Assembly: GCF_024721305.1 (NCBI RefSeq)
Contig: NZ_JAMXOD010000016.1
Span: 1-64,000 of the forward strand
Length of the DNA: 64,000 nt
Origin: Aequitasia blattaphilus
Lineage (GTDB): Bacteria > Bacillota > Clostridia > Lachnospirales > Lachnospiraceae
Direction: 5' to 3'
Shown here: positions 9,817 through 45,207 of the stretch, one piece after another
Position numbering within the stretch: the stretch's first letter is position 1
Layout of the letters: each line of letters begins with the position of its first letter
The notes under the pieces: generated by a model
Told to the model about the DNA's origin: nothing
Database searches by the model: none
Seen by the model: only the letters and a program-made list of their open reading frames with translations
Program-made: the position numbers and the translations under genes

Positions 9817-10511
9817 CTAATAGATTTCTGTAGCTTCATCAAAGAGAGCCTTGATATTTGCCGGAGGTACATCTGGCATAATTGCTTCATGACTTGGGGA
9901 AATAATTAATCCAGTCGGAAAAATTGTCCGCAGCTCTTTCACCTTTGCTTTTACTTCCTCTGTCGTGCCATTCACCAAAAGGTCTTGGGTGTCTACTCCA
10001 CCACAGAAAGATACTTGATCACCAAATTCAGCCTTCAATTCCTGAGGCTCCATTCCTGCTGCCAATGCCTGAATGGGATGAACAATATCTACTCCCGCCT
10101 CAATTAAATCCGGGATAACATCACGGATAGATCCACAAGAGTGATAAATTACCTTCAATCCATACTCATGAGCCTGAGCCACTAATTTTTTGGCTCCTGG
10201 GATAATAAACTGACGCACCATTTCTGGTGAGAGCATTAATCCTCTCTGGCTTCCCATATCATTCCCAATCAATACCGCATCCAATTCACCTTTCGTTGCC
10301 TCATAAAAAATCTTATTCGCCTTTAGGTAAAAGTCCATTACCTTTTCATCTACTGCTTCATAAATCTCTGGATTTGCAATCATGTTCATCAACGCTGTTT
10401 CCATTCCAAAAGCTGCACAAGTGTCTTGAAAATGTGCGGACCACATCATACCTAGACGCACCTTATCCTTTGGTGCATTTGCAACCAACTCCTTGCAGGC
10501 TTCCACATTAT
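9817..10511 (-). pseudogene. UroD-family protein, 5' end removed at an insertion sequence
   Basis: About 230 C-terminal residues of a uroporphyrinogen decarboxylase-family protein; in Clostridia such proteins are often corrinoid-dependent methyltransferases rather than heme enzymes. Recognisable parts are KVIYHSCGSI, the VDIVHPIQ segment and a VSFCGGVDTQ stretch close to the C-terminal (beta/alpha) strands. The family is normally 340 or more residues, so roughly a third is missing. The frame runs straight into the insertion sequence boundary at 10512, and the GTG at 10506 is not a plausible native start. The missing 5' part is not found beyond the other end of the element. Confidence 0.8.
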
Positions 10512-10527
10512 AGGCGTTTGCGAAACG
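10512..10527 (+). repeat. left terminal inverted repeat of the insertion sequence
   Basis: AGGCGTTTGCGAAACG matches the complement of the right end at the outer AGG and the inner TTGCGAAACG. The repeat overlaps a small palindrome, GGCGTTT-GCG-AAACGCC. Confidence 0.7.
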
Positions 10528-10652
10528 CCAAAACCCGCGTTATTGCGGTGTTTTTCATTTTAAATAATAAAACAACTCCTCAACAGTTTATGGTAAAATT
10601 GAATTGTCCAAAAACAATCAACCATCCACCTGAAAGGAGTTGCTATAGTATT

Positions 10653-12110
10653 ATGATACCACACAAACAGCTTTCTTTAGCAGATATTTTTACCGATTGC
10701 CAAAATAAATTTGATAACGATAAATATGAGTTCCTCGAACTTCTCGATCAAACCATTGACCTTGACGAAATTGTCCCGGTGTCTTTTGTTTCTCATTTTC
10801 ACGCTGCTACCGGAAGACCTCGTAAGCATCAACTGTATCCTATGCTTAAGGCGCTTTTATTACAGCGTATCTTTTCCATCCCTACTGATTCCCTTTTAAT
10901 TCTTTTCCTCAAATATTCTCAGGAGTTACGGGAATTCTGTGGGTTTGATGTTGTTCCTGATGCCTCTAAATTCACCCGCTTTAAACAGGACTTCCTTCCG
11001 GACTTACAATCTATGTTCGACCAAATGGTTGATCTGACCGAACCGATCTGCCAAACCATCAATCCTTCCCTTGCATCCATGACCATTTTTGATACTTCCG
11101 GCATTGAAGCCTGGGTGACTGAAAACAATCCCAAATATCTCAATCGTCTAATTAAACAGCTCAAGGTATTTAAACACTCTCATGGTCTGGATGATTCTTA
11201 TGACCCCTATAAAGCCGCCTACGCTTCCATGTCTCCCCACGCTGCTACCAATCCTGCCATTCAGCAAATGTATATCAATGGCCATTTCTGTTACTCTTAC
11301 AAGTTTGGCCTAGTGACAAATGGTCTTGGCATCGTTCGGGATATTACATTTTATAATCAGGATTTCTTAAAAGCTCATCCCAATATCGTGGTGCAAAAGA
11401 AATCGGATTCTCCAGACGAAGATAAGTCCCTCGCTGACTCAAAGGCACTCATTCCTGTCCTGACGGACTTTTTTAACAAGCATCCCCTGATTCATCCCAA
11501 AACCTTCCTTGGTGATTCGGCTTTTGATACCATCGAGATTTACCATAACCTTTTTCATACACTGCATTTCGAAAAGGCCTTTATTCCTTTGAATGGAAGA
11601 CTTTCTCTTCCAAACTCGGACTGTCCTCTTAATGAATACGGGATTCCCTGCTGCCCCAAAGATCCAAAACTTCCAATGACGCGAGAAGGAAGTAAAACGC
11701 ATCTGCGTTGTGGGTTACCTACCATGAAGTTTGTATGTCCGAAAATGAAGTGGAAGTGGAATAGCTCAACGAGAAAAAGCAAGCGGATCTGTGAATGTGA
11801 AGACCCTTGCACCTCCTCATCCTGCGGCAGAATGTTTTATGTCTATCCCAAAAAGAATCTCCGTGCTTATCCGGGAACTGCCCGGGGTACCGAGGAGTGG
11901 GATACTACTTATAAGATCCGGGTAAATGTTGAGAAATCCATCAATCACTTTAAAGACAGTTTCTGCGTAGCTGGCCGTAAAACTCAAAATGAGAAAACAT
12001 CTCATGCTGATTTACTGCTTGCAGGTATCGCTCAGCTTGTAACAGTTATGGTGGCTGATAAAATCCATAAGCATCAATATATTCGAAGTCTGAAGCCATT
12101 GATTGCTTGA
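10653..12110 (+). CDS. DDE transposase (IS1182-like)
   Basis: A 485-residue transposase that cuts and joins the element's ends. Candidate DDE residues are Asp147 (FDTSG), Asp288 (GDSAFD) and Glu427 (VNVEKSINHFKD). The N-terminal region with TGRPRKHQLYPMLKALLLQ resembles the DUF772-type domain. A Cys-rich insertion between Asp288 and the final Glu (about residues 324-391, at least ten Cys) suggests a metal-binding knuckle. AAAGGAG lies 13 bases before the ATG. The frame stays open further upstream to about 10227 but that part crosses the element's left end and is not coding. Confidence 0.85.
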   Translation: MIPHKQLSLADIFTDCQNKFDNDKYEFLELLDQTIDLDEIVPVSFVSHFHAATGRPRKHQLYPMLKALLLQRIFSIPTDSLLILFLKYSQELREFCGFDVVPDASKFTRFKQDFLPDLQSMFDQMVDLTEPICQTINPSLASMTIFDTSGIEAWVTENNPKYLNRLIKQLKVFKHSHGLDDSYDPYKAAYASMSPHAATNPAIQQMYINGHFCYSYKFGLVTNGLGIVRDITFYNQDFLKAHPNIVVQKKSDSPDEDKSLADSKALIPVLTDFFNKHPLIHPKTFLGDSAFDTIEIYHNLFHTLHFEKAFIPLNGRLSLPNSDCPLNEYGIPCCPKDPKLPMTREGSKTHLRCGLPTMKFVCPKMKWKWNSSTRKSKRICECEDPCTSSSCGRMFYVYPKKNLRAYPGTARGTEEWDTTYKIRVNVEKSINHFKDSFCVAGRKTQNEKTSHADLLLAGIAQLVTVMVADKIHKHQYIRSLKPLIA

Positions 12111-15736: not shown

Positions 15737-18457
15737 TTATCTTTTTTGTCTTCTGCGAATTACTACAACTCCTGCCAGCATTACTGCAGCTAATAATACA
15801 ACGAAATAGAAGTATACCTGTGTATCATCTCCTGTTCTTGGAGTGCTGGAAGTTTTGCTCACACCTTTTGTATTGCTATTTGATGTATCTTTCGGTGTAT
15901 CTTTTGTTGTGTCCTTTGGTGTGTCCTTCGGTGTATCTTTCGGCGTGTCCTTTGGTGTGTCCTTCGGTGCGTCTTCACCGGTGATTATTTCCGGCTTAAA
16001 GTTCTTCACTTTTCCATAATCAACTACTGCCTCTGCACTTGTAAGCTTATCGGTTAGTTCAAACGCAAACTTATTCTCTGCATCCTTTGGCAATTCATAT
16101 CCTGCTGGAGCCTTCGTTTCCTTGAAGTAATAGCTTCCTGCTGGCAAACGCATAACTTGTAAGTTCCCCTCAGCATCTGTAACGAATGTCTTATCATCTG
16201 CTGTATCTCCTGTATAGACAAGATACGTTACTCCATTTAGCTCTTCCTCTTTAAATCCAGTCAGTTTTTTATCACCATTGCTTCCAACCTGATACAACTC
16301 GAACTCAGCATCTGCTAATTTCTTATTGCTATCTCCATCAACCTTTGTTAATTTCACACCTCTTGCTGTGTTGTTAATCACTTCGTACAGGGCTTTCGAG
16401 CTATCTACTGTAAAATCCAGCTCTTTTTCTTCTTGGTAATACCCTGTCGCAGTAGCAATCTCTTTAATTGTATATGTTGTTCCACTTTGCAATCCAGATA
16501 AAATAAGGCTGCCTTCGGGATTTGTACTGATAAAAGTATCTCCGCTGGCATTATCAAGGACATACTTATCTGTATTTGTATCGATTGTAAATTTAAGGGC
16601 TGTACTGCTGCCTTTTTCAAATACGTTAAACTTTACATCTGCAATGGCTGCATTTCCTAAGGTTACACTGGATGACGTCTCACCTTCTGCATATCCAGCG
16701 AGAGAATCTGCCTTGTATATCTCTACCTCCCCTTTCTTTGCATTGGCTTCAATAGTTGCACCCCATTTATTTGCAAATGTAGCTTCATCACTTTCACTAA
16801 CCGTTCCACATGTAGCCGTAAATGAATTCCCTACTTCATCAGCATGATATGCATCCAGATTATCCATATCAATCGTTGTACGAATCGTAAGGTCAAACAT
16901 GTAAATAAATGGCTTGTCTTGATAGTAGGCTATCGTATCGGTATAAATCTGTTGAAAGCTTTCCCATTGTGCTTTTGTGTACTTAGGTTCAGCGGTATCC
17001 TCTGAAGCTTTTATCATCTCATCAGAACCCGCGGTTGAATTTTCCGTCAGCACCTTTTTGCAATAATCCTTCTCATCTTGAAACCACTTAATTACTGTGG
17101 CCATATCTTCATCGCTATATATATCGGAATAACGTAATCCCGTACTTCCAGGTGCTCCAAAGTTTATAATCATACGTTCACGCTGCTTTGACGAGTCACT
17201 TGGATCTGTTTCCTTCACAACAGTATAGGTCTTTGCATTACTTTTTACATAAGCTTCTGCTGCTGCATTATTCCCATATGTAGAGGCATCTACGTACTCC
17301 ATACCTAATGTTTGTGTCGATGGTTTCGTTGACTGTACGTCTCTGTTTGCACTAATACCCTTTTTGTCTGAATAGACAATAATCTTCGGTTCCACATCAG
17401 CCCCTGTAGGATTAGCATGCTCATCTGAACAAAGTAAAAGAGGGAAATTCATGCCAAACCATACACCTGCATCATTTTTATTTTCGTCAATCAAGAAAAA
17501 GCTTTGATTACTATCCACTGTTTCTTCAATGATTACATTACTATAATTTCCCCATCCATTTGATTGATATTCCTGCATATGGGTAAGAGCTAAGGGGTCA
17601 AATCTAATCACCCAATTTAAGCGATCATACTGTGGGGAATAGGCTCTTCCTTCCTTGGATGCTGAAATCGGGGTTTTGGGTGACATGCCAGGTCCAAAGG
17701 GTCCCTTTTCTTCACTTGAAGGAGGATCCTGCTTCGTGTATGTAGCAACAGCATTCCCGCCTGCATTAACGGTAATATTTTCATCTTTTGCCAGACCAGT
17801 AATATCTGCATATCCCGTCAATGTGCCCTTCACATCTTTTTTGTCTTTTACTCCCTCTGTAAAAGTAATAACATACTTTATCTTTGCGGTTCTTCCAGTA
17901 CCTTCACCGGATACCTCTGAAACCAGCTTTCCTTTTGCTAAAAGTGTGTTTTTGTCTTTTGGATCCTGATAGAGATCTTTCTCACCACTCATGATACTCC
18001 ACACTCCAGCAGCACTTCCTGTAAATTCACAAAGTTCAAACTCCAGCGTATCTCCCGGGTTGATTATAGGAGAAGCACTGGTTTGTTCAAATGATAAATT
18101 AAACTCTATTCTTGGAACACTTGTTACATTGCCTCCATCTACAGTTGATCCAGGCGTATCTTTATCGTAAATTGTCTGTGTTCCCGCCTTAATCACCAAT
18201 GTCTTCAACTGAAATATCCCATTTACGCTCTTTGATTCTTCCGCATAATTTATACCTCTGGTCTCAGGCATTTGAAAATCTTCTTCTTCTGTTTCTTTCA
18301 CTTCCTCTGTTTCCTCGTCTACTACTTCCACTGTTTCCGGATTTTCAACAGTCTGAGTATTGACGTCCTCAGCTTGTATGCTCATAGGTGTTGACATCGC
18401 CATAAAGGCAATAAGCATCCATGCCAGTGCTTTCCAAGGGGCACTTTTTTTCTTCAT
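15737..18457 (-). CDS. SpaA-type, isopeptide-domain, LPXTG-like wall-anchored surface protein
   Basis: A 906-residue cell surface protein. It has a signal peptide (KKK start, hydrophobic core about 9-25, cut near SIQA-ED), an acidic Glu/Val/Thr stretch, and a large N-terminal adhesin-like region. At least two SpaA/Cna-B domains follow, ending in the typical Glu motifs YTIKEIATATGYY and YYFKETKAPAGYEL, which form internal Lys-Asn isopeptide bonds. Then come a DTPK repeat spacer, a TPRTG sorting signal near 872-876, a membrane helix and the RRRQKR tail. A sortase should couple it to peptidoglycan; none is in the window. AAGGAG precedes the ATG. It may be a pilin-like subunit or a single adhesin. 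Confidence 0.88.
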   Translation of the reverse strand: MKKKSAPWKALAWMLIAFMAMSTPMSIQAEDVNTQTVENPETVEVVDEETEEVKETEEEDFQMPETRGINYAEESKSVNGIFQLKTLVIKAGTQTIYDKDTPGSTVDGGNVTSVPRIEFNLSFEQTSASPIINPGDTLEFELCEFTGSAAGVWSIMSGEKDLYQDPKDKNTLLAKGKLVSEVSGEGTGRTAKIKYVITFTEGVKDKKDVKGTLTGYADITGLAKDENITVNAGGNAVATYTKQDPPSSEEKGPFGPGMSPKTPISASKEGRAYSPQYDRLNWVIRFDPLALTHMQEYQSNGWGNYSNVIIEETVDSNQSFFLIDENKNDAGVWFGMNFPLLLCSDEHANPTGADVEPKIIVYSDKKGISANRDVQSTKPSTQTLGMEYVDASTYGNNAAAEAYVKSNAKTYTVVKETDPSDSSKQRERMIINFGAPGSTGLRYSDIYSDEDMATVIKWFQDEKDYCKKVLTENSTAGSDEMIKASEDTAEPKYTKAQWESFQQIYTDTIAYYQDKPFIYMFDLTIRTTIDMDNLDAYHADEVGNSFTATCGTVSESDEATFANKWGATIEANAKKGEVEIYKADSLAGYAEGETSSSVTLGNAAIADVKFNVFEKGSSTALKFTIDTNTDKYVLDNASGDTFISTNPEGSLILSGLQSGTTYTIKEIATATGYYQEEKELDFTVDSSKALYEVINNTARGVKLTKVDGDSNKKLADAEFELYQVGSNGDKKLTGFKEEELNGVTYLVYTGDTADDKTFVTDAEGNLQVMRLPAGSYYFKETKAPAGYELPKDAENKFAFELTDKLTSAEAVVDYGKVKNFKPEIITGEDAPKDTPKDTPKDTPKDTPKDTTKDTPKDTSNSNTKGVSKTSSTPRTGDDTQVYFYFVVLLAAVMLAGVVVIRRRQKR
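15884..15974 (-). repeat. 12-bp tandem repeat encoding DTPK units
   Basis: Seven to eight copies of a 12-base unit code for Asp-Thr-Pro-Lys with single variants (DAPK, DTTK, DTSN). They form the wall-spanning spacer before the sorting signal of the surface protein. Base-level divergence between copies is small, as in repeats that change number by slippage. Confidence 0.85.
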
Positions 18458-18788
18458 TCTTTTCTCTCCTTCTCTTTAACTAAATTTAATTTATTAAATT
18501 AGTTTATTATATCTCTTTTGTGTGCCTTTTTCCACACTTTTCGCATAATTTGTTCTTTTTAGACAATTTTGTAAATTTAGACCATCCCCGTAAAAAATAT
18601 GGAGCACATGATAAAAGACCGTATTTTTTGTCTCTATACTAAATGTTGAGGTGGATGATTTATAAAAAATGCACTTATAACACAAAACTGCTAAAATGTT
18701 GTTGTCTAAACAAGCAATAAAGTAGCTTTGGTATAAGTGCATTCTAATTCTATTAGTAAATAATTAAATTTATTGCTTATGGCTTACG
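18458..18788. other. 331-bp non-coding gap between adhesin and Enzyme I genes
   Basis: No convincing gene is seen. On the minus strand a TATAAT -10 box (complement at 18506-18511) lies in front of the adhesin, beside an AT-rich near-palindrome (18480-18502). Further out are two inverted repeats: AAAAAATATGG (18592-18602) with CCGTATTTTTT (18619-18629), and a perfect 12-bp AATGCACTTATA (18668-18679) with TATAAGTGCATT (18732-18743). An 82-residue open frame here is Cys/Ile-rich with no start context and spans the repeats. Confidence 0.6.
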
Positions 18789-20401
18789 CTAATCCATGTC
18801 CCGAATAATCTCCCGTATGGGAAGAATGAAGGATGGAGATACGGAGAGTTCATCAACTCCCATTTCCACAAATCTCTCGGTAAGAGCGGTATCCGCTCCC
18901 AATTCTCCACAGATGCCGACCCATGCCCCACCTTTATGACCGTTTTCTATCGTTGTTTCGATCATCTTAAGAATGCCGGATGATGGGGGTCGTAAAACTC
19001 ATCCAGCTTGGGGTTTTGCCTGTCAATTGCAAGGGTGTACTGTGTCAGATCATTGGTGCCGATACTAAAGAAATCCACTTCCTTTGCCAGTTCTTCGCTT
19101 ACAATAACCGCAGCTGGTGTTTCAATCATAATACCAAGCTCCACATCCTCATGTGCAATTTCCTGGGCTTTTAATTCAGCTTTTACTTCTTCGAAAATCT
19201 CTTTTACCTTTCGTATCTCCTCAACCGATATAATCATCGGCACCATAATCGAGATATTCCCGAATGCACTGGCTCTTAAAATGGCACGGAGCTGGGTCTT
19301 AAAGATATCCGGTCTTGTCAGACAGATACGTACGGCACGATATCCAAGAGCAGGATTTTCTTCCTTCTCCAGTTCAAAGTAATCCACTTGCTTATCTGCT
19401 CCGATGTCAAGAGTACGGATAATAACCTTTTTCCCACCCATATTTTGAGCGACTGTCTTATATGCAGCAAATTGCTCATTCTCCGTTGGATAGTCTTTCG
19501 TTTCCAGATAAAGGAATTCGCTGCGGAAAAGCCCGATTCCCTCTGCATCATTTGCAAGGGCCCCTATCGTATCGGATACACTGCCGATATTTGCATAAAG
19601 ATTAACTTTTTTTCCGGATTTTGTTATGGATTCTTTTCCTTTTAATGAAATTAAAAGTTCCTGCTTTTTCTTCTCTTCTTCCACAACCTCTCGTGCACTC
19701 TTAAGTGTTTCTTCATCAGGATCAATAATAATTTCACCCTTATACCCATCCACAATAATCCTTTGATTATTCCATTCTTTTTGAATGGGAACTCCAATTA
19801 CAGCAGGGATGTTCATCGTTCTTGCCAAGATGGCTGTATGGGAGTTCGTAGATCCCAGTTCTGTTACAAATCCAAGAAGCTTCGTTTTATCCATTTGCAC
19901 TGTTTCGCTGGGGGCTAAGTCCTTCGCAAGTAAAATACAAGGTTCTTTTGGCTCGCTGGCGCTGGTTTCTTTGTTGCTTAAGATTCGTATGACCCGTTCG
20001 GATATATCCTTTATGTCTGCCGATCGTTCCTTCATATACGCATCTTCCATACCGGCAAACATAGCAGCAAAGTTATCACCCGTTACACCTACGGCATATT
20101 CTGCATTTACTTCCTGACTTTTGATGATGTTTACAATAGAATCACAGAAATCATCATCTTCTAAAAGCATTTGGTGAACTTCGAAGATAGCCGCTCCTTC
20201 TTCACCCACTTCTTTTAATGCCTTCTGGTAAAGCTCTCCAAGCTGGAGAACTGCTTTTGCTTTTCCTTCTTCAAAGCGGGTAAGTTCTTTTTCAATATCC
20301 TGTATCTTCTCCCTCTTCACCTGAGAGTCTTCTTTCTCATAGAAGTAAGCTTTTCCGATTGCAATTTTTTTCAGTACCGACTTCCCCGTGTATCTCTCCA
20401 T
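18789..20401 (-). pseudogene. ptsI: PTS Enzyme I with an apparent 1-base frameshift
   Basis: Phosphoenolpyruvate-protein phosphotransferase: it takes phosphate from PEP and passes it to HPr. The phospho-His loop is present ([10 protein letters not shown]), as is the PEP-binding barrel ([38 protein letters not shown]). After the segment DPHHPA the frame hits TGA at 18962-18964. Another frame continues exactly where Enzyme I should, through WVGICGELGADTA, VDELSVSPS and ILPIREIIRDMD, ending at 18789. One missing base at about 18971-18976 (GCATT where GCAATT would fit) explains it. The lost 58 residues include the catalytic Cys in GICGE. Restored, it has 538 residues, normal for the family. The ATG at 20401 has GAGGTG upstream. 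Confidence 0.85.
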
Positions 20402-20420
20402 CACTTTTCACCTCATTCCT

Positions 20421-20678
20421 CTACAGGTTATCTTTAAAAAAGGTTTCCATTGCCTTTGCTGCCTCTTCCTCATCTTCTCCTTCAATCGTCACAGTAACTT
20501 CTGCGCCCTTTTTTACCGCCATTCCCATGAGCATCATCAGCTGTGTTGCCTGTACTTCTTTTTCCTCTTTTTTTACCATAATCTTGCTGCTAAACTTTTT
20601 TGCTTCTTTCACTAATAATCCTGCCGGTCTTGCATGAAGACCTAATTCGTCATTTATTACATATTCAAATGATTTCAT
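20421..20678 (-). CDS. ptsH: HPr phosphocarrier with Gln at the Ser46 position
   Basis: An 85-residue phosphocarrier between Enzyme I and the PTS IIA domains. His15 lies in the normal GLHARPAG context. The regulatory Ser46 of Gram-positive HPr is Gln here (VQATQLMMLMGMAV), so HPr kinase could not phosphorylate it and it should not act as a CcpA co-repressor. It starts inside the end of the HAD gene (14-base overlap) with GGGAGG before the ATG, and is followed by Enzyme I 19 bases later. It looks like a dedicated HPr for the ascorbate-type PTS of this operon rather than the housekeeping copy. Confidence 0.9.
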   Translation of the reverse strand: MKSFEYVINDELGLHARPAGLLVKEAKKFSSKIMVKKEEKEVQATQLMMLMGMAVKKGAEVTVTIEGEDEEEAAKAMETFFKDNL

Positions 20679-21354
20679 TTCTTCCTCCCTTTAAACACTC
20701 TTTGAAATTTTCGATTGTCTCATATTGGCTACTCTGGTTCGCTGGCTTATACCAGATTCCACGAAGTCCTGATTCAATCGATCCCTTAACATCTCGTTCT
20801 AAATTGTCACCTATAAAAACACATTCACAGGGTTTACATCCCAACTTTTTCACACACAGTTCAAAAAATTTTTCACTCGGTTTCTCTATTCCTGCTTCTT
20901 CACTGGTCAGTATCATATCCATATCCTCTAATACGCCTAGCTTTTCCAGTTTTCGATACTGAATATATGCCGTCATGTCCGTTCCCACACCTACGAGGAT
21001 GCCCTGACTTTTCAGCTCTTTAATAAAATCTAAGAGTCCCGGCTCCGGCTTCATATCCTCAATCAATGTATCCCAGTAAATTTGATACATGGTAAGAGCC
21101 ATAGAAAAAGATGACCGGTTGAGAAGTTCCAATAAGCATTGAAATCTCAATAGCCGGTTGTGACTGGCTGCGTATTGGATTCCTGTTCGCTCCTCAACCA
21201 TTTCCTGAGCTCTTTTTATCTTTTCATAAAAATCTCTTTCCGATAGTCCAATCTTCTCTTTGCAGTATCGACTTACCTTCTGAAGTGCAATTTCATTTCC
21301 ACCATCATAATCGTACATCGTATTATCAATATCAAAAACTACTGCTTTTATCAT
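20665..21354 (-). CDS. HAD-superfamily phosphatase
   Basis: A 229-residue Mg2+-dependent phosphatase of the YjjG/phosphoglycolate-like group. Motif I is DIDNTMYDYDG at the N terminus, motif II is the VGVGTD threonine near residue 120, Lys of motif III is in GIEKPSEKFF, and motif IV is VFIGDNLERD. The helical cap lies between motifs I and II. It should remove phosphate from a small sugar phosphate or similar metabolite; perhaps it clears dead-end phosphates in this pathway (inference). It follows the epimerase by 5 bases and overlaps the HPr gene. Confidence 0.82.
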   Translation of the reverse strand: MIKAVVFDIDNTMYDYDGGNEIALQKVSRYCKEKIGLSERDFYEKIKRAQEMVEERTGIQYAASHNRLLRFQCLLELLNRSSFSMALTMYQIYWDTLIEDMKPEPGLLDFIKELKSQGILVGVGTDMTAYIQYRKLEKLGVLEDMDMILTSEEAGIEKPSEKFFELCVKKLGCKPCECVFIGDNLERDVKGSIESGLRGIWYKPANQSSQYETIENFKECLKGGRNEII

Positions 21355-21359
21355 GAGAA

Positions 21360-22046
21360 TTACTCCTGTCCGTAATATGCATTTTCTCCGTGTTTTCTGT
21401 AATAATGCTTATCCAATAATTCTTTAGGTGCCTCTGTTGCTCTGGGATTAATCATCTCTGTACAGGCCGCCATTTTTGCTACTTCCTCTAAAACAACAGC
21501 ATTGTGTACGGCTTCATAAGCATCCTTACCCCAGGTAAAAGGACCATGATTTTTACAAAGCACACAAGGCACTGCCTCTATATCACGGTTTTGAAAATGC
21601 TCCACAATGAGCCTTCCTGTATTTGCCTCATAATCCTCTAATTCTTCCTTCGTCAGATTCCTTACGCAAGGCACCTCTCCATAAATATAATCTGCATGTG
21701 TCGTTCCATAGCAAGGAATCCCCCGTCCGCTTTGTGCCCAGCTGCTCGCCCAGGAGGAATGGGTATGTACGATTCCTCCGATTTGCGGAAATGCTTTATA
21801 AAGCTCACAGTGTGTTGCTGTGTCGGAGGAAGGATTGTACCTTCCTTCAATCTTATTCATATTCAGATCCATAACAACCATGTCTTCCGGCTTTAGCTGA
21901 TTATAGTCTACTCCACTTGGTTTTATGACAAAATAACCACTTTCTCGGTCCATGGCACTTACATTACCCCAGGTAAATGTAACCAGCCCATATTTGGGCA
22001 GTTCCATATTTGCCTCATATACCACCTGCTTTAATTCTTCTAACAT
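21360..22046 (-). CDS. ulaF: L-ribulose-5-phosphate 4-epimerase
   Basis: A 228-residue class II aldolase-fold epimerase that converts L-ribulose 5-phosphate to D-xylulose 5-phosphate, the last step of ascorbate breakdown. Zinc ligands are seen: the two His of VHTHSSWASSW and the His of CKNHGPFTWG. Conserved family stretches include LVTFTWGNVS, KPSGVDY and EGRYNPSSDTATH. Length fits AraD/UlaF/SgbE; the ula setting favours the UlaF role over arabinose use. The start is 1 base after the stop of the beta-propeller-like gene, with GAGGAG upstream. Confidence 0.88.
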   Translation of the reverse strand: MLEELKQVVYEANMELPKYGLVTFTWGNVSAMDRESGYFVIKPSGVDYNQLKPEDMVVMDLNMNKIEGRYNPSSDTATHCELYKAFPQIGGIVHTHSSWASSWAQSGRGIPCYGTTHADYIYGEVPCVRNLTKEELEDYEANTGRLIVEHFQNRDIEAVPCVLCKNHGPFTWGKDAYEAVHNAVVLEEVAKMAACTEMINPRATEAPKELLDKHYYRKHGENAYYGQE

Positions 22047-22047
22047 T

Positions 22048-23100
22048 TTATTTCTCCTCGGTTAAGGTATACATTGCCACCTCATCAATCTCACGATTTG
22101 TTGCAATAATCTTATCCACACCGTCTAAAACGTAATGATATACATTCGCCGGTCCACATCCTTTATCAATAACTTCTACATGATAGGTTTCCTTTTCTCT
22201 ATCATAGGCAAATGCTAATAACTCCTGTTCTCCTTCCCGGTTTCCGATTAGAAGAGTTGGTCTTTTACATACTTCACTGCCGTATATTGCATGGCTGAAA
22301 GGAAGTGGTTTTGTGTATTCATAATCTTTCTGGAATTGACCTTCCTGCTTTTTATAAATTCGTATTGTCTCTCCATGAAATGGTGCTATAACCGCCAGCT
22401 CCTTTTCTCCATCCTGATCCAGGTCAAGAAGCAGCGCATCACTACAGGGTTCATCCAGTATCTTCTCGGTGGACCAATTTTCTTCCTCTTTCACCGGAGG
22501 TGTAAATAGATAAACTCCATTTTCTGCCGATACAAGGGCAGACACTGTATCTTCTTCTATACGATAGTATCCATGGTTCTTTAGAAGATTATCCATTAAT
22601 ACCTGAAGCTCCAACTGATTTCCTTCATGAAATTCACTTAAGTCTTTGGGAAGCTTTGCTCCGTATACTTTCCCCGGCTTACTCCAATCTCCCTTAAAAT
22701 CGTTTCCAGATTTTATCGTACATGCAATCAAATAATTCTCACCCTTTTGGGTTAGTATATCGAATCTGTGAACGTAAGGAAGATTTACCAATGTTTTCAC
22801 TTCCCACTTCCCTTTTCCTCTCGGAGTAACGAGAACAATTTTTGCATCATCTGCATCGTTTGGGGAATAGAATTTCTGTGTTGCCAAAAACTCCCCATTT
22901 GAACCAGGTATCTGCACCATGCTCATGGTTCCTCCGGGTTTTTCCCAGACAACATCCTTCTGATTTCCTTTGGCATCAAAGAGCAGGCACTCATCTGTCT
23001 TTTCCGCCGCAACTAATATATTTTCTTCTCCTTCGTAAAACAAAGGAGCAATGGAGTAGCATTTCGTCAGATGAGCTAATACTTTTTTCTCTATTTTCAT
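22048..23100 (-). CDS. beta-propeller-like protein of unknown function in the ula operon
   Basis: A 350-residue soluble protein without signal peptide or membrane helix. It is mostly short beta strands with repeated patterns such as ENILVAAEKTDECLLFD, NGVYLFTPP, LLLDLDQDGEKELAVIAPFHG and PTLLIGNREGEQELLAF. The DLDQDGEKEL stretch looks like a Ca2+-binding FG-GAP/VCBS repeat, which elsewhere builds seven-bladed propellers. It is locked between ulaE (1-base overlap at 23100) and ulaF, so it is part of the pathway. I cannot name its reaction; a lactonase or hydrolase acting on a sugar acid, or a binding or regulatory role, are both possible. Confidence 0.7.
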   Translation of the reverse strand: MKIEKKVLAHLTKCYSIAPLFYEGEENILVAAEKTDECLLFDAKGNQKDVVWEKPGGTMSMVQIPGSNGEFLATQKFYSPNDADDAKIVLVTPRGKGKWEVKTLVNLPYVHRFDILTQKGENYLIACTIKSGNDFKGDWSKPGKVYGAKLPKDLSEFHEGNQLELQVLMDNLLKNHGYYRIEEDTVSALVSAENGVYLFTPPVKEEENWSTEKILDEPCSDALLLDLDQDGEKELAVIAPFHGETIRIYKKQEGQFQKDYEYTKPLPFSHAIYGSEVCKRPTLLIGNREGEQELLAFAYDREKETYHVEVIDKGCGPANVYHYVLDGVDKIIATNREIDEVAMYTLTEEK

Positions 23101-23960
23101 TACGCCACCTGCCTTTCCTTTACTTGCCGGTTTAAAATCTCACGCATCATTTGACTTGCATAAGATAAGTCATCTTTCCATGTCTCATTGCCTGTATACC
23201 AGAATTCCGTTACATACTTTCGAATTCCCAGTTCCCAGGCTTTTTTAATTCCCCTTTCGAAATCAACATGCCCTGTTCCAAAGGGTACTTCCCTAAATAC
23301 TCCGGGAATCGTTTCCTTTAAATGCATGGCAGATAAATGACCTCTTCCAGTCTCCAGGTCTTCCTCTACACTGGTTTCGTAAGTATATGCAGCATTCGTA
23401 ATATTTCCCAAATCCGGATAGACATTCAGATAGGAAGAATTAACCTGATTTACGTAATGCATTGCTTTTTCTACTGTATTCATAAATTCTGTTTCCATAG
23501 TTTCAAAGCCTAATACTACTCCGGCACCTGCTGCCATCTCTGCTGCTTTTTTTAGATTCCCGGCAAATCGTTCTTTCGTTTCTTTTGTAGATTCTTCATA
23601 ATAAACATCATAACCTGCTAATTGAATAATCCGAATTCCTAAATCTTCCGCCAATCGGATTGCCTTTTCCATAATCTCCATTCCTCTGGCCGCAATCGAA
23701 TCATCCATACTTCCGATTGGATATTTACGATGTCCGCTTAGGCACATGGTTCGTATCGGTAAGTCAATTCCATTTGTTATGCTTAATAAACCGGCTCTTT
23801 CTTCTTGTGTCATATCGAGCCGTTTCAGCTTTTCATCTGTTTCATCTATACTAATCTCAAGGAAATCAAAACCTGCTTGCTTCGTATACATGAGTTTTTC
23901 TCTCCACCCTAGGTTCGGTGGCATGGACTTCTCATAAAGTCCTAATGTATATGCTTTCAT
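23100..23960 (-). CDS. ulaE: L-ribulose/L-xylulose-5-phosphate 3-epimerase
   Basis: A 286-residue TIM-barrel epimerase that converts L-xylulose 5-phosphate to L-ribulose 5-phosphate. Metal-binding residues stand in the expected strands: Glu in LGFETME, Asp in VYPDLGN, His in SAMHLKE, and Glu in YVTEFWY. FLEISIDETDEKL and MCLSGHRKYPIGS are typical of the UlaE/SgaU/SgbU group. The start at 23960 has GGAGG just upstream; a GTTG-rich stretch further out does not code. It lies 42 bases after the DeoR gene. Confidence 0.9.
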   Translation of the reverse strand: MKAYTLGLYEKSMPPNLGWREKLMYTKQAGFDFLEISIDETDEKLKRLDMTQEERAGLLSITNGIDLPIRTMCLSGHRKYPIGSMDDSIAARGMEIMEKAIRLAEDLGIRIIQLAGYDVYYEESTKETKERFAGNLKKAAEMAAGAGVVLGFETMETEFMNTVEKAMHYVNQVNSSYLNVYPDLGNITNAAYTYETSVEEDLETGRGHLSAMHLKETIPGVFREVPFGTGHVDFERGIKKAWELGIRKYVTEFWYTGNETWKDDLSYASQMMREILNRQVKERQVA

Positions 23961-24002
23961 GCTTCCTCCAACCGGCAAAGCATATGAGTTTAAATCTACT
24001 TT

Positions 24003-24773
24003 TTAAAAATCACTTCTACGTACCTGATGGATGTGAACACCTTTCTCTCTTAATAACTCCAGCTCTTCAGGGTCTGCCTTTTCGTCTGTAATTAAATGTT
24101 GAACCATATCAATTCCACAACTTGTAAAACTGCTGTTTCTTCCAATCTTAGTGTGGTCAGCAAGAATATAAACTGCTTGCGTCGCATGGTCTATCATCAG
24201 TTGATTTACATTTACTTCATTTGCAATCTCCGTTGTCATACCTGTTAATGAGGATATCCCGGAGCATCCCACGAAAGCTTTTTTGGCAAAAATGTTCTGC
24301 AAATTTCGTACCGCAAAATCACCTACCATTGCTTCCTTTGGATACCGAAGCTCTCCCCCCGTTAAAATAATGCTGACACCATCACCTTTTTCATAGTTGA
24401 TTGCTTTTCCGTTATTGGTGATAACCGTTACATTATCCTTCTCTACATAACGAATCATTTGCAATGCATTACGACTGGTATTGATAAATATGGTATCTTC
24501 ATCTTCTACAAGGGTGGCTGCATATCTTGCTATCAGTTCCCGATATAAGCTTACTTCATCTTGAGCGTTATCCGCTTGGTCTGTTACGACCGCCCCTCCG
24601 TAAAAACGTTTTACCTGCTTATTTTCTTCCAGATACTGCAGATCTCTTCGAATCGTTATTACGGATACCCCTAATCTCTTTGCTAGTTGGTTTACGTTTG
24701 CTTCCGGGTTTTTATTTAATATTTCAACGATTTGGCTTCTTCTTCCATCCACGTATGCTTTCTCTCTCTTCAT
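24003..24773 (-). CDS. DeoR-family regulator of the ula operon
   Basis: A 256-residue repressor. An N-terminal DeoR helix-turn-helix (about 10-60; VNQLAKRLGVSVITIRRDLQYLE) is followed by a sugar-phosphate-binding DeoRC domain, with FINTSRNALQMIRYV, VITNNGKAI and ILTGGELRYPKEAMVG. UlaR of E. coli belongs to the same family and senses L-ascorbate 6-phosphate, which makes that the likely ligand here. It has its own promoter (24803-24831) within the operon. The start at 24773 is supported by GGAGG six bases upstream. Confidence 0.87.
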   Translation of the reverse strand: MKREKAYVDGRRSQIVEILNKNPEANVNQLAKRLGVSVITIRRDLQYLEENKQVKRFYGGAVVTDQADNAQDEVSLYRELIARYAATLVEDEDTIFINTSRNALQMIRYVEKDNVTVITNNGKAINYEKGDGVSIILTGGELRYPKEAMVGDFAVRNLQNIFAKKAFVGCSGISSLTGMTTEIANEVNVNQLMIDHATQAVYILADHTKIGRNSSFTSCGIDMVQHLITDEKADPEELELLREKGVHIHQVRRSDF

Positions 24774-24802
24774 AATAATCCTCCAATTCAATTATATGAT
24801 TG

Positions 24803-24958: not shown

Positions 24959-25264
24959 TTAATCAATGATTCCATGTTCTTTCATCTTATCTTCAATTTC
25001 TTTTGGCGACATAATGTTTCTAAGTCCAATAACAGTTGTTCCTCTGGCTGCTGCATCTTTAAACATATTGCAGAAATTTTGTGCACAGAATACTACATCA
25101 TATTGAGATGCCGCACTTTTCCCTTCTGATAGTGCACAGTGATGAATCTTTCCTGGTTTTAGTCCCACTTTATCCAGCACTTTCTGCATCGTCATTTTCA
25201 TCATTAAGCTTGACCCTGCCCCGTTTGCACAACATACTAAAATACTCATGTTTTCTTTTGCCAT
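24959..25264 (-). CDS. ulaB: PTS ascorbate-type IIB component
   Basis: A 101-residue cytoplasmic phosphocarrier. The active Cys is in LVCCANGAGSSLMMKM (Cys12 by the C-x-N-G pattern), and the C-terminal VIGLRNIMSP matches UlaB closely. It accepts phosphate from the IIA protein and passes it to the sugar in IIC. AAGGAG precedes the ATG. It is 23 bases downstream of IIC. An extra Cys at position 11 and a CAQNFC motif near residue 60 are unusual but do not change the assignment. Confidence 0.9.
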   Translation of the reverse strand: MAKENMSILVCCANGAGSSLMMKMTMQKVLDKVGLKPGKIHHCALSEGKSAASQYDVVFCAQNFCNMFKDAAARGTTVIGLRNIMSPKEIEDKMKEHGIID

Positions 25265-25287: not shown

Positions 25288-26772
25288 TTACTTGCTTTTT
25301 GCTTGTTTCAACTCTTTATACGCTTCATAATCTTTTGTCATTAAGAAGTAACCCTTTTTATCCATACGATATTGAATCTGAGGTATTGCAAGAAGTGCAA
25401 TTACCACAATTGCGATACCTGCATAACTCAAGAACTTCATAACCGCCGTCATTACAGGCCATACCACTGCCCAGTCCCACATTCCTAAGTATCCGCCGTA
25501 AGCTGCCATTCCTGCCCATCCGGCAATAATTGCCGATCCAAACACCTGACATATGCCGGATAAGAACGGTAATATAAGTGCCGCCTTAACACCACCTTTT
25601 TCATTTGCGAAAATCGCAATCGTAGCATTGTCAAAAAATACTGGAACGAACCCACATATAATAAGCACCGGACTCTTTAGTACGATTAAAACTGCTATCG
25701 CAATAATCTGTCCTACAAAACCTGCTAAGAATCCAATTGGAACCGCATTTGCAGAACCAAATCCGAATGCAACTGCACAATCTACTCCCGGAACAGAACC
25801 AGGTAGAAGTTTGTTTGCAATTCCCTGGAAGGATTCCGTAAGCTCTGTTACGAAGGTACGAACTCCTAATTGGAGGATTGCTAAGTATACTGCAAAGTAT
25901 AAACAAGTCTGTATAACATAGAACACCATGCTTTGTCCCTCTGCCATGAACTCTTGTTGTACAAGGTAGTCTCTTCCTAATACACATAGGATGATTCCAA
26001 AGAAGATCAGCATAAGGATTGATGTACATACCATGTTTTCATTAAAGATTGACATAAATCCCGGTAGCTCAATATCATCAAGCTTTTTCACTTTTTTTCC
26101 GTTTTTCTTCTTCCCAAATAGCTTCTCAGCCAGCCATGTATTTAATGCAATACCAAACATCTGCTGATGGGCAAGACAGAATCCGCCACCGTCTGATAAC
26201 TCCTGACAAGGTTTAATTGTAAGATTTGAACCAACTGCCCAGTAAAGACCAAGCACAAGTGCCATTACAACAATCAGACCTATATCATTTTTAATCAGAA
26301 ACGGACAGGCAAACAGGATTAGCCAATAGGCCGTTGAAGCCTGCTGTACTTGCACATGTCCTGTGGTAAACAACGCTCTCATCTTCGTGATTTTACTGAA
26401 ACGAACCAATAAGATATTTACGACAAAGGCAATCAAAAGGAGAATCATAGCATTTCCAAATCCCTTGCCAAACACTTCTTCTACTCCTGCTGTTACCGCA
26501 TTTTGTCCAAAGTACGGGTCAATAACTGTTGCATCCATGTTAAAACGATCTTTTAGTCCTACAAGTACCGGTCTAAAGTTACTAACCAGTCCACCGGAAC
26601 CAACCGTTAAAATCAAATATCCTACAATCGCTTTGATTACGCCTGCAAGTACATCATACCATGATTTCCCAAGTAAAATGTATCCAAGCATAACAATCAG
26701 ACCAATCATAAAAGCGGGTTGCTGTAAAATGTTAGTTGCAAAATACGACCAAGCACGCATTAATATATCCAT
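25288..26772 (-). CDS. ulaA: PTS ascorbate-type IIC permease
   Basis: A 494-residue membrane permease with about 11 helices. It shares the UlaA/SgaT opening (GYILLGKSWYDVLAGVIKAIVGY), VGSGGLVSNFRPV, and the TTGHVQVQQAS and PGVDCAVAFGFG loops. The family imports L-ascorbate while adding phosphate at O6. E. coli UlaA has 465 residues; the extra length is mainly a Lys-rich cytoplasmic loop (KKKNGKKVKK, about residue 230) and the C-terminal tail. It is 24 bases downstream of IIA. Confidence 0.92.
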   Translation of the reverse strand: MDILMRAWSYFATNILQQPAFMIGLIVMLGYILLGKSWYDVLAGVIKAIVGYLILTVGSGGLVSNFRPVLVGLKDRFNMDATVIDPYFGQNAVTAGVEEVFGKGFGNAMILLLIAFVVNILLVRFSKITKMRALFTTGHVQVQQASTAYWLILFACPFLIKNDIGLIVVMALVLGLYWAVGSNLTIKPCQELSDGGGFCLAHQQMFGIALNTWLAEKLFGKKKNGKKVKKLDDIELPGFMSIFNENMVCTSILMLIFFGIILCVLGRDYLVQQEFMAEGQSMVFYVIQTCLYFAVYLAILQLGVRTFVTELTESFQGIANKLLPGSVPGVDCAVAFGFGSANAVPIGFLAGFVGQIIAIAVLIVLKSPVLIICGFVPVFFDNATIAIFANEKGGVKAALILPFLSGICQVFGSAIIAGWAGMAAYGGYLGMWDWAVVWPVMTAVMKFLSYAGIAIVVIALLAIPQIQYRMDKKGYFLMTKDYEAYKELKQAKSK

Positions 26773-26796: not shown

Positions 26797-27252
26797 TTAA
26801 TCCACGTATTTCTTCTGAATCTCCAGTAAGTCTTTCGGAGTTTTCGCTTCCTTTAGTTCATTAATAATATCTTCGTTGCTAAGCAGTTCTGCCAGACCTG
26901 CCATATTCTCCAAATGCTCTTCGGGGTTACAAGATGCCAGAGTAAAAAATAAAGTAGCATCTTTCTCTTCATCTTCCGGATCAAAGCTTACTGGTTCTTC
27001 CAGCTTCATAAAAGCAATGGCTGTCTTGTGTACTCCCTTTGCACATTCCTGGGAGTGAGGCATCGCTACATCCGGCATAATCACAATATAAGGACCATAT
27101 TCCTCAATACAACGAATGATATCTTCTTTGTAATTTTCCTCTACGGTTCCGTCTTGTTCCAAGACCTCACAGCTCATGCGAACTGCCTCTTTCCAGTCAC
27201 TTGCATTTTTTGCAAATTTATAATGATTTTTTTCAACAAATTTCTTTAGCAT
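26797..27252 (-). CDS. ulaC: PTS ascorbate/mannitol-type IIA component
   Basis: A 151-residue phosphocarrier of the fructose/mannitol IIA superfamily. The phospho-His is His66 in VAMPHSQEC. LFFTLASCNPEEHLENMAGLAELL is typical of UlaC-like proteins. It takes phosphate from HPr and gives it to UlaB. The start at 27252 (GGGAGG five bases upstream) overlaps the end of ulaG, whose stop is at 27267, without conflict. The operon's own HPr and Enzyme I are the presumed donors. Confidence 0.9.
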   Translation of the reverse strand: MLKKFVEKNHYKFAKNASDWKEAVRMSCEVLEQDGTVEENYKEDIIRCIEEYGPYIVIMPDVAMPHSQECAKGVHKTAIAFMKLEEPVSFDPEDEEKDATLFFTLASCNPEEHLENMAGLAELLSNEDIINELKEAKTPKDLLEIQKKYVD

Positions 27253-27266
27253 AGTATCCTCCCTTA

Positions 27267-28370
27267 TTATAGACAAGAACGGAAAGGTATATTCTGAGGT
27301 GCTTCGAAGCAGTCTTCAAATCCTCTTCTGTGATGATACGCTTTTTTGTCTTTATCTGTTGGATATACATATTTCCCACCTACTTCCCAGAAAAATGGGT
27401 GGAATCTGTAATCTAATCGATCTTTTTTCATTTCATGGAGCACACGAATTTCGTTTACATCTGCCATAAAATTTGTCCATACATCATAATGAATCGGCAC
27501 TACTACCTTACATCTTAAAGCCTCTGCCATTCGAAGTACATCACAAGATGTCATTTTATCTGCCATTCCTACCGGATTTTCACCGTAAGAGGCAAATGCC
27601 ACATCCACATCATAATCTTTTCCATGCTTCGCAAAATAGATTGAATAGTGAGAATCTCCACTATGATATACATTTCCTCCCGGTGTTTTAATCAGGTAGT
27701 TTACTGCTTTATCGTCCATATCTGTGGGACAAACTCCGGTCAGTTCTTCTCTGTCTTCCCCCGTAGAATCTGTTGTAACCAGACAGGTTCTATCAAATGA
27801 ATCCAGTGCAACAATCTCAATATCTTTGATTTTTATTGTATCACCCGGTCTTACTGTAATACAACGTTCTTCCGGTACCCCCCATTTTTTCCACAAGTCA
27901 ACAGATTTCTCAGGACCGATAAAGGGTACAGGGATGGTTTCACCCTTTTCATTTACTGTCGTCATTTTGGATTGAATAACATGTGCCGCATACTCTGCGC
28001 TCATATGATCCTGATGATAATGAGTTGCTAAAACTGCATCTACTTGTTTGATTGCAAAAGGATCGATCACAAAAGGTACTGCTCTTAGGTTTGGCTGCAT
28101 GTTTCTTCCACCACACATATTTGCCATCTGATGGCCTACAGCCATTTTACCGTTACCATGTGTACGCTTTCCATTGCCACACCAAAGATCAACTGTTATA
28201 TTGCATCCGCCGGGAGTCTTGAACCAGATACCGGTACATCCAAGCCACCACATTGCTACTGTACCGGGCTTTACTTCCTCGGCTTCAATCTCTTCATTTA
28301 ACCAGGTTCCCCACTCAGGAAAAGTACTCATTATCCAGCTTTCTCTGGTGGTTTCATCAATCTTGCTCAT
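27267..28370 (-). CDS. ulaG: L-ascorbate-6-phosphate lactonase
   Basis: A 367-residue metallo-beta-lactamase-fold lactonase that opens L-ascorbate 6-phosphate to 3-keto-L-gulonate 6-phosphate. It is close to E. coli UlaG along its length: [51 protein letters not shown] and the metal motif THYHQDHMS. More His ligands appear in YHSGDSHYS and VVPIHYDVW. The start at 28370 has GAAGGAGG five bases upstream. It is the first gene of the ula operon, behind the repeat-rich leader. Confidence 0.95.
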
Positions 28371-28408
28371 AAATTCCTCCTTCAAACGATTCGCTCATAT
28401 AACTCGAG

Positions 28409-42407: not shown

Positions 42408-44020
42408 CTACTGAAGTCCCATCATTCTGGAAACGGTCTTCATCGACAAACGGTAGATTATCATTTGATAGAGTGCAATCATGACGGCAATACCAATGAA
42501 TAAAGGAATCTGCCTTACTTCACCTGTTGTTATGATTCGGTCATTCATATAGAAAATCAAAAACTGAAACAAGGTCATAATCGTAATCCCCACAATTGTA
42601 GGTAGCACATAGACTTTTCGAATCATCTTCCCTAAAAGTTTCTTCAGATATTGATTGTCTGCACCTAATTTCCGAATGTCCATAAACACCTGCTGGTTTG
42701 TAATGCCTACGCTCTGACTTCTCGTATAGGAAATGATTCCCACTGCTGCCAGACAGATAACCGCTACATAAAGAAAAAGAAGGTAAAATATTGCAAACCG
42801 CAGTGCAAGATTCCCCTGCATAAGAGATATGAGAACCGGCTCGTATTTCCAGTCTACATCCATTGCTGAATTGTCCGGATTATAGACAGCCTTATAGTCT
42901 TCCGGATTATCACCTTTTCTTTTGATGGAATTAAAATCATAAATTCCCATTACATCCATCTCTTCTGACATACGAAGTGCAAACTCTTTGTATAGTTTTG
43001 TGCCAAATGCGATTTCGTCATCACTTTTTCCTTCTGTATTAAAGAGTACCTGACATACTATTTTATTCGGGGTAAGTCCTGTTCTCAGCCTCTCATAATC
43101 CTGGTCATTTATCACGTATCTTGCATCTGAATCAAACCCATATCCCGTTGTTAAAACACGGCTCTTTGCAATTCCCTTATAGGACATCGGAAGATAATCC
43201 TCCTCTGATGAGCAGTAGAGATAATCCATATTGTCAAAGCGGTTATAAAGATTTTCGGTTGCATCAGGTGTATGAATCAGGTAATAGCTTCCCTCTTCCA
43301 CTACTAACTTTTCCCCTGTTAATGCTTCATAAGAACCTGCGCTGATGCATTCATATTCTATAAAATCCTTATAATATTCTTCTATCAGGTTATTGTCCTC
43401 ATCAAAGTCTTCCCGCTCTGTTCCGCTTCCGGTTACTTTAATCAGTTCCCCTTCCCTGTAGTCTGTTATCGTAACATTATTTTCTTTTGCAAGCTTTTTT
43501 GCATCCTCCTGTGATATCTCGTCCGCATCCATCAGATAGTGGTAAGAATACTCTGCCTCATACTTATTTAATGTATCTCCTGCACCCAATAGATTAACCG
43601 GCGTATAGAACACTGCAAATAATCCGGCTGCTAAAAGAAGTGTGATGACCATCATATTCTTTACAATAGATGCACCCTGAAATTTCAACATTCCATAGGA
43701 AATCAGATTGTTGTAATACTTCTGGGGACCCCTCCCTCTTCGATGACATGCAACGGAATAAACCATAATATGATACAGACCGATTAACACAAGTGCATAG
43801 AATAAATTCGTCCATCCTCCAAGACTATGATGAAATACATTCATAGATATACTTGGGATAATCATCCCTCCTAAAACACCAACCAAAATTGACACAAATC
43901 CAATTATCAGGTATCTGGGCGTTACCATCTTTTTCAAAGGTTCCTGCTTTCTCTGTTCATTTATAATATCCATGATATTACTGCGACGCATAAAACGTTT
44001 TGCTAAAAGCATTATTGCGT
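42408..44020 (-). pseudogene. FtsX-like ABC permease, 5' half missing
   Basis: About 535 residues that match the central and C-terminal part of a BceB/YxdM-like FtsX permease: helices at about 38-60, 75-95 and 125-145, a large extracellular domain (about 155-410), then three final helices. Complete members begin with a helix and about 250 more residues; here the readable part starts at LLAKRFMRRSNIMDI, an internal motif. Upstream the frame turns polar and hits a stop. The likely break is at about 44015-44025, where the truncated kinase gene begins on the other strand. No partner ATPase is nearby, so it is probably non-functional. Confidence 0.65.
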
Positions 44021-45207
44021 ACAAACAAAGGGTTACAGATTCTTGCTTATATTTTTGTTTTCTTTGCTACAAATTCCATGATTTATGCAGGAGATGTGAT
44101 AAATATCTTCGGATCTCTTCTGGCATTTTTCATTTACGTGATGTGCTTTTTTTCGGATTCTCTTTTAAAGAAGCTCTCTGTAGTCATTGTCCTTCACCCG
44201 GCTATTATATCCACCAACTTTCTTTTTTATGACTTCGGATTAAGCATCTACTTGGCTCATCAGGATATGTCTGTGCTGAATCAAAATATTATGCGTGCTT
44301 TTTTCCTTCTCCTTCAGTGTTTACTTTGGTTTATTATTTTTAAATTATCCGGCAAATGGAACTGGGAAATCCAGAATCTCACTCCTAAGATGTGGTTAAT
44401 CATTGATCTTCTCAGTCTTTCTTCTTTTGTAGGAATTCTGACAATACTTTCGATTACTCCTGTCCGAAAAAGCTATCTTTCATACCCCGGGGTTCTGGCC
44501 TGTCTTTTAACCAGTGTTGGAAGTCTCTATCTGACTGCCTATATTTCAAAATCCATAAAGGCAGAAGAGGAAAAGAAAAACCTGATGTATCAGCAATCCT
44601 ATTACCTGGAGCTGGAACAAAATCAAAGGAGCATCCGGAAGCTTCGTCATGATATGAACAATCATCTAAACGTAATTGGTTCTTTTATCAGGGACAGAAA
44701 TCTTGAGGATGCATCTGCCTATTTTTCCCAGTTATCTGACACTCTTGAAGGGGTAAACCAAGGCAATAAAGTTTTTTGTAACAACAGTATTTTAAATGCT
44801 CTTCTAAATGCCAAATATGCTCTTGCCCTGGAAAAGGAAATTGATACCTTTGTCAACATCTCCATCGACGGACTGATTGGAATTGATGACATAAGTCTTT
44901 GTTCTCTTTTTGCCAACACCTTAGACAATGCCATTGAAGCAAATCAGCAGATTGAAGACAGAAAAAAGCGGACCCTCTCTTTAAAGGCCGCTATGATAAA
45001 GGGAATTTCAGTTTTCAATTATCCAATGCAAAAGCAAATGACATATTAACGAAGAATAACCGTTTTCTTACCACAAAAAAAGATAAGACGTCTCATGGAA
45101 TTGGTCTTGAAAATATAAAAGAGATTGTGAATAAATACAATGGAAATTTAGATATTACACACACGGAGACTGATTTTACCATTACTATTTTTATCGGAAA
45201 TCTTTAG
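44000..45207 (+). pseudogene. GHKL (AgrC-like) sensor kinase, frameshifted
   Basis: N-terminal part: about six helices (residues about 12-190), then LRHDMNNHLNVIGSFI, the phospho-His segment of AgrC/CitS-like GHKL kinases, and the N-box NTLDNAIEA. At 45001-45003 the frame is lost: the original frame ends at 45049 in unrelated sequence, while another frame from GGG at 45001 gives the expected end, FSFQLSNAKAN, SHGIGLENIKEIV and an ITIFIGNL tail to the stop at 45205-45207. One missing G explains it. The 5' end abuts the broken FtsX gene and may also be short. No response regulator is beside it. Confidence 0.75.

Follow-up and report, generated by a model that had tools for sequence, protein, structure and literature searches.

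An L-ascorbate PTS operon on the minus strand ends with a gene for an Enzyme I whose reading frame, in the sequence as read, is interrupted by a single-base shift. We think it somewhat probable, at roughly 0.55, that a base was lost in this strain, and only very recently, from the Enzyme I gene of the window (the whole 64,000-nucleotide stretch of DNA analyzed here). The break is a correct observation of an ordinary kind, and it looks like a recent mutation or an error in the sequence and not like a new mechanism. It is common for one member of a set of paralogues to carry a single-base frameshift, and draft assemblies contain errors; for both reasons we attach little weight to the case as a mechanism.

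The long frame starts with GTG at 20404 or ATG at 20401. The N-terminal HPr-binding and mobile His domains are present within it, with Pfam matches over positions 1-121 of 121 for PF05524 and 2-72 of 72 for PF00391, but PEP-utilizers_C (PF02896) can be followed only to model position 234 of 293. Its remainder, from 232 to 291 of 293 (E = 3.7e-14), lies in the -1 frame, which is open from after a stop at 19001-18999. With PF02896 split over two frames, no single chain contains the PEP-binding C-terminal barrel with its Cys in GICGEL, which we take to be the catalytic residue of Enzyme I. Alignment with relatives places the shift within roughly the final twelve bases 5' of the TGA. A genome-wide search returned two adjacent partial Enzyme I matches (E = 1.2e-95 and 5.0e-13), and identity between this tail and the tails of all 80 named-genome relatives (L022-L101) ranges from 53 to 77%. 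The open frame of the tail is therefore not a matter of chance. The original prediction had placed the stop of the Enzyme I frame at 18962-18964, the lost C-terminal part in the neighboring frame and a single-base frameshift just 5' of the Cys-bearing end, and all of this is borne out by the frames, the Pfam remainder and the alignment.

Features of the broken Enzyme I gene, its operon and the second broken gene in the window
Feature	Position	Strand	Remarks
Enzyme I (ptsI-type), N-terminal open frame	18962..20404	-	480 aa; TGA at 18964-18962
Enzyme I, C-terminal remainder	18789..18998	-	Cys in GICGELGAD; neighboring frame; stop 18791-18789
Overlap with both frames open	18962..18998	-	37 nt; one-base shift inside
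ATGA	18962..18965	-	TGA of long frame with in-frame ATG of short frame (58 aa)
HPr	20421..20678	-	adjoins Enzyme I; His15 present, Gln in place of Ser46
HAD-type hydrolase	20665..21354	-	part of the operon
L-ribulose-5-phosphate 4-epimerase family (UlaF/AraD)	21360..22046	-	
350-aa protein	22048..23100	-	no Pfam or NCBIfam match
L-ribulose-5-phosphate 3-epimerase family (UlaE)	23100..23978	-	
DeoR-family regulator	24003..24791	-	
PTS EIIB	24959..25264	-	best NCBIfam matches ascorbate type, below cut-off
PTS ascorbate EIIC (UlaA)	25288..26772	-	NF006919, 390.7 against cut-off 380
PTS EIIA	26797..27276	-	best NCBIfam match ascorbate type, below cut-off
L-ascorbate-6-phosphate lactonase UlaG	27267..28385	-	NF008688, 619.7 bits against cut-off 306
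GHKL sensor kinase, second one-base break	44000-45207	+	HATPase domain split at 44992

As in the bacterial PTS Enzyme I (TIGR01417, PtsI), the DNA contains all the domains in their proper order. The long frame alone scores 546.3 bits against a cut-off of 341.7, and identity to intact relatives reaches 71%. Unlike PtsI, the protein as read stops short of the final strand and helices of the barrel and lacks the catalytic Cys.

In the 5' to 3' direction the operon encodes UlaG, EIIA, EIIC, EIIB, a DeoR regulator, UlaE, the 350-aa protein, a UlaF/AraD-type epimerase, a HAD hydrolase, HPr and Enzyme I. Its assignment as an ascorbate PTS operon, also part of the original prediction, is upheld by the lactonase and the ascorbate EIIC, both of which exceed curated cut-offs. 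It is like known ula/sga operons in having UlaG, EIIA, EIIC, EIIB, a DeoR regulator, UlaE and a UlaF-type epimerase, and unlike them in including the 350-aa protein and in ending with its own HPr and Enzyme I. A promoter and terminator scan of 18300-20700 gave sites no commoner than in shuffled sequences, scanning the window for Rfam families and tRNAs found nothing, and a plasmid search gave no match. The next large open reading frame downstream of the broken Enzyme I (15737-18457, minus strand) encodes a 906-aa surface protein with SpaA-type domains. An IS1182-type transposase with a long N-terminal extension lies at 10227-12110 on the plus strand, with 62.9 bits against a cut-off of 270.

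The 350-aa protein is found in 35 of 299 genomes of the family, its own included. We fetched 35 related loci around it, from 35 of the 36 matches outside its own genome, and ulaG or ulaE lies alongside in 27 of the 35 stretches. This genomic association suggests that the protein is an undescribed companion of the ascorbate pathway or a related one.

We have asked whether the break is shared by relatives. The comparison covers 93 other Enzyme I loci. Named genomes supply 80 of them, taken as the best of 147 confirmed relatives listed; the same genome supplies four, two genus relatives together another four, and the surroundings of ula-type genes the remaining five. One Enzyme I-like locus (L016) in the genus relative G001 was left out. 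The frame past the Cys is open in all 93, and none has the break; 91 pass the motif rule, and two were accepted by eye, L056 containing unknown bases and L113 reading CGN. Judged from these alignments with ptsI of related genomes, which had been proposed as a check, the break is private to the present sequence among the Enzyme I loci examined.

Among the five loci near ula-type genes, L150 has an intact Enzyme I of 71% identity beside a nearly full operon (the HAD gene being unmatched), and in L156 an intact Enzyme I of 68% identity accompanies the 3' half of the operon up to the contig end. The remaining three, L154, L158 and L160, form a distant Enzyme I group of 43-46% identity. In a quick tree of the 94 Enzyme I sequences, where the forks around the window Enzyme I are weakly resolved, its nearest neighbors by path are L023, L156, L022 and L150. 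Of the paralogues of the same genome, those on contigs C10 and C12 share this region of the tree with it, and those on C44 and C60 lie further off. Both genus relatives, G001 and G002, have Enzyme I paralogues. The 350-aa operon protein has no match in G001, and in G002 an HPr gene lies close to a contig end, beyond which an Enzyme I would be out of sight.

The manner in which the tail has changed bears on the age of the break. Change in the tail is highest at the third codon position in nine of nine comparisons (seven relatives and two paralogues of the same genome), as it is in the long frame. Against L023, for example, change at the three positions is 0.21/0.10/0.69 in the tail and 0.25/0.14/0.61 in the long frame. 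The comparison with the C12 paralogue is unlike most of the others, with second-position change of 0.29 in the tail exceeding the 0.20 of the long frame. On this pattern of substitution, selection acted on the tail until very recently, or else the break is absent from the organism. Because the tail still changes like a selected gene, the break is either very recent or an error in the sequence. The rest of the operon exhibits no decay, its other ten genes each matching L149 or L150 over nearly the full length; like the C12 comparison, this counts against a real loss of the base.

An error of sequencing or assembly, with an intact Enzyme I in the living strain, is a real possibility, one to which we give appreciable but lesser credence. 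It would be consistent with a tail that is free of clear further decay, with the intact frame of all 93 relatives and with the assembly being a draft in 60 contigs. There is a run of five C within the frame overlap, though the long frame matches the relatives 3' of that run, and the last dozen bases 5' of the stop contain no run of three or more. Another one-base break is found in the same contig, in the GHKL sensor kinase gene, where HATPase model positions 2-35 match at 44885-44992 and 36-101 at 44992-45195 in different frames; the frame at 44000-45049 is weakly like AgrC, with 48 bits against a cut-off of 500.

Against an error stands a control with two large families. Inner stops occur in none of 144 ABC_tran matches genome-wide (150 of 205 candidates scored) and in none of 49 BPD_transp_1 matches (62 of 62 scored), and neither large family has adjacent partial-match pairs in different frames. 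Within the window, only one other open reading frame looked cut in a Pfam scan of 54 (together with the separate Enzyme I tail), in which three gave no match and a cut lying beyond the domains would escape. Two breaks in a 64-kb window compared with none in two families would fit either local errors or two real young pseudogenes. A scan for frame switches over the window and four paralogue stretches reported nothing but normal gene junctions, four in number, with neither of the known breaks among them, making it too weak to serve as a control. Since neither break site is a long homopolymer, we favor real mutation over error. The gene is like an ordinary frameshifted pseudogene in its single-base shift, the presence of paralogues and the conserved state of the tail; it is unlike one in that the break could be a sequence error.

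The structural consequence was examined on the fold predicted for L022, an intact relative (mean pLDDT 86.6, pTM 0.68). The cut at residue 480 lies in the helix 476-491, before the strand 495-499 that bears the Cys. The truncated chain would thus be missing the end of the PEP-binding barrel: its final strand, with the catalytic Cys, and its final helices. Without the barrel end and the Cys, taking up phosphate from PEP would be impossible, and on this model the 480-aa product should be unable to use PEP. As far as PEP is concerned, the original prediction that such a protein cannot work is upheld to that extent. The N-terminal domain might at most exchange phosphate with HPr.

The EIIABC of the operon could instead be served by another Enzyme I. 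A search for a second full-length ptsI in the genome, suggested along with the original prediction, found four. Three of these lie in PTS clusters with an HPr, of mannose type (with family matches below cut-off), beta-glucoside type and fructose type, and the fourth, on contig C60, has no neighboring HPr. Any one of the four might supply the phosphate, which would pass to EIIABC through the operon's own HPr or another HPr.

Related loci point in the same direction. An Enzyme I lies within the fetched stretch in five of the 35 loci around the 350-aa protein (on the other strand in L160) and is absent from 30, several of which are cut by contig ends. Five of the loci (L149, L152, L159, L166 and L167) have near-full-length EIIA, EIIC and EIIB on the same strand and no Enzyme I in the stretch, and because of these we consider that an ascorbate operon can run on an Enzyme I from elsewhere. 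If the break is real, the present operon would do so too. Dependence on a housekeeping Enzyme I had been put forward as a consequence of the break; the four other full-length genes and the five EIIABC loci with no local Enzyme I render it plausible, as a deduction from gene content. With four other Enzymes I, and with related loci that have none, the operon need not be dead, and the broken gene should not be used to call it either dead or self-sufficient.

Could the two pieces act together? In such a scheme ribosomes would halt at the TGA and restart at the ATG, and the 58-aa tail would complete the barrel in trans. The ATGA overlap sits exactly at the junction, as in a translationally coupled pair, and the two chains together miss no aligned residue. 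Such ATGA pairs are discussed as translationally coupled in PMC6728339. The cut, however, falls in the middle of a helix within the barrel of the predicted fold and not between domains, no relative has a split Enzyme I, and the ribosome-binding site upstream of the ATG is weak by eye. Moreover the ATG is an inherited Met codon, with Met at that position in 14 of 19 aligned relatives. In favor of the scheme, trans-complementation of the N- and C-terminal domains of Enzyme I was reportedly described by Fomenkov in 1998, a work cited in PMC5537066. We regard a two-chain Enzyme I as highly improbable, and it would be at least as surprising if the loss of one base had created a coupled two-gene unit whose chains, cut inside the barrel, reassemble as a natural split Enzyme I at its birth.

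A recoded site had also been considered, at which programmed -1 frameshifting would yield the full-length protein. In the -1 direction the frames do share 37 nt, and there is one in-phase heptamer, AAACCCC, at 19016-19010, but this lies outside the overlap and a -1 shift there runs into the stop at 19001-18999. Within the overlap there is no in-phase slippery heptamer. The downstream RNA fold has a z-score of -1.13, with 25 of 200 shuffled sequences as stable, and the arrangement occurs in none of the 93 relatives. Programmed frameshifting is consequently given almost no credence. The other suggestion, of a reversible phase-variable OFF state, can draw on nothing more than the single-base change itself and the five consecutive C that lie some 20 nt upstream, and is scarcely credible given that a tandem-repeat scan and a listing of homopolymers found no simple repeat array at the break site and that the match of the long frame to relatives 3' of the C run shows that the shift is not in that run.

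The present case was not found in those parts of the literature that could be seen on frameshifted ptsI, ascorbate PTS with EI or HPr paralogues, ula with ptsI and Enzyme I domains, nor in those on HPr lacking Ser46, HPr/EI operons in Lachnospiraceae and ATGA coupling.

A more interesting pattern is that of single PTS operons having their own HPr and Enzyme I, with an HPr that lacks Ser46 in 77 of 77 cases. In the present genome four PTS operons or clusters, on C10, C12, C44 and in the window, each have their own HPr and Enzyme I, and the C60 Enzyme I is without an HPr beside it. The 77 HPr proteins accompany Enzymes I of the window clade, a set chosen by similarity to the window Enzyme I. They comprise that of the window, those encoded in one locus with Enzyme I, as seen in 71 of the 80 named relatives, those of the three paralogue clusters of the same genome, and those of L150 and L156. 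His15 is kept in all of them, and Ser46 is replaced by Arg in 39, Lys in 29, Gly in five, Gln in two and Ala in two. Ser46 is present in an HPr encoded on contig C23 of the same genome and in the three HPr of the distant Enzyme I group (L154, L158 and L160). From these residues, dedicated HPr proteins without Ser46 may escape control by HPr kinase. A further HPr-like protein of the same genome, which we take to be Crh-like (L104, 1492-1746 on contig C29), has Asn in place of His15 and keeps Ser46.
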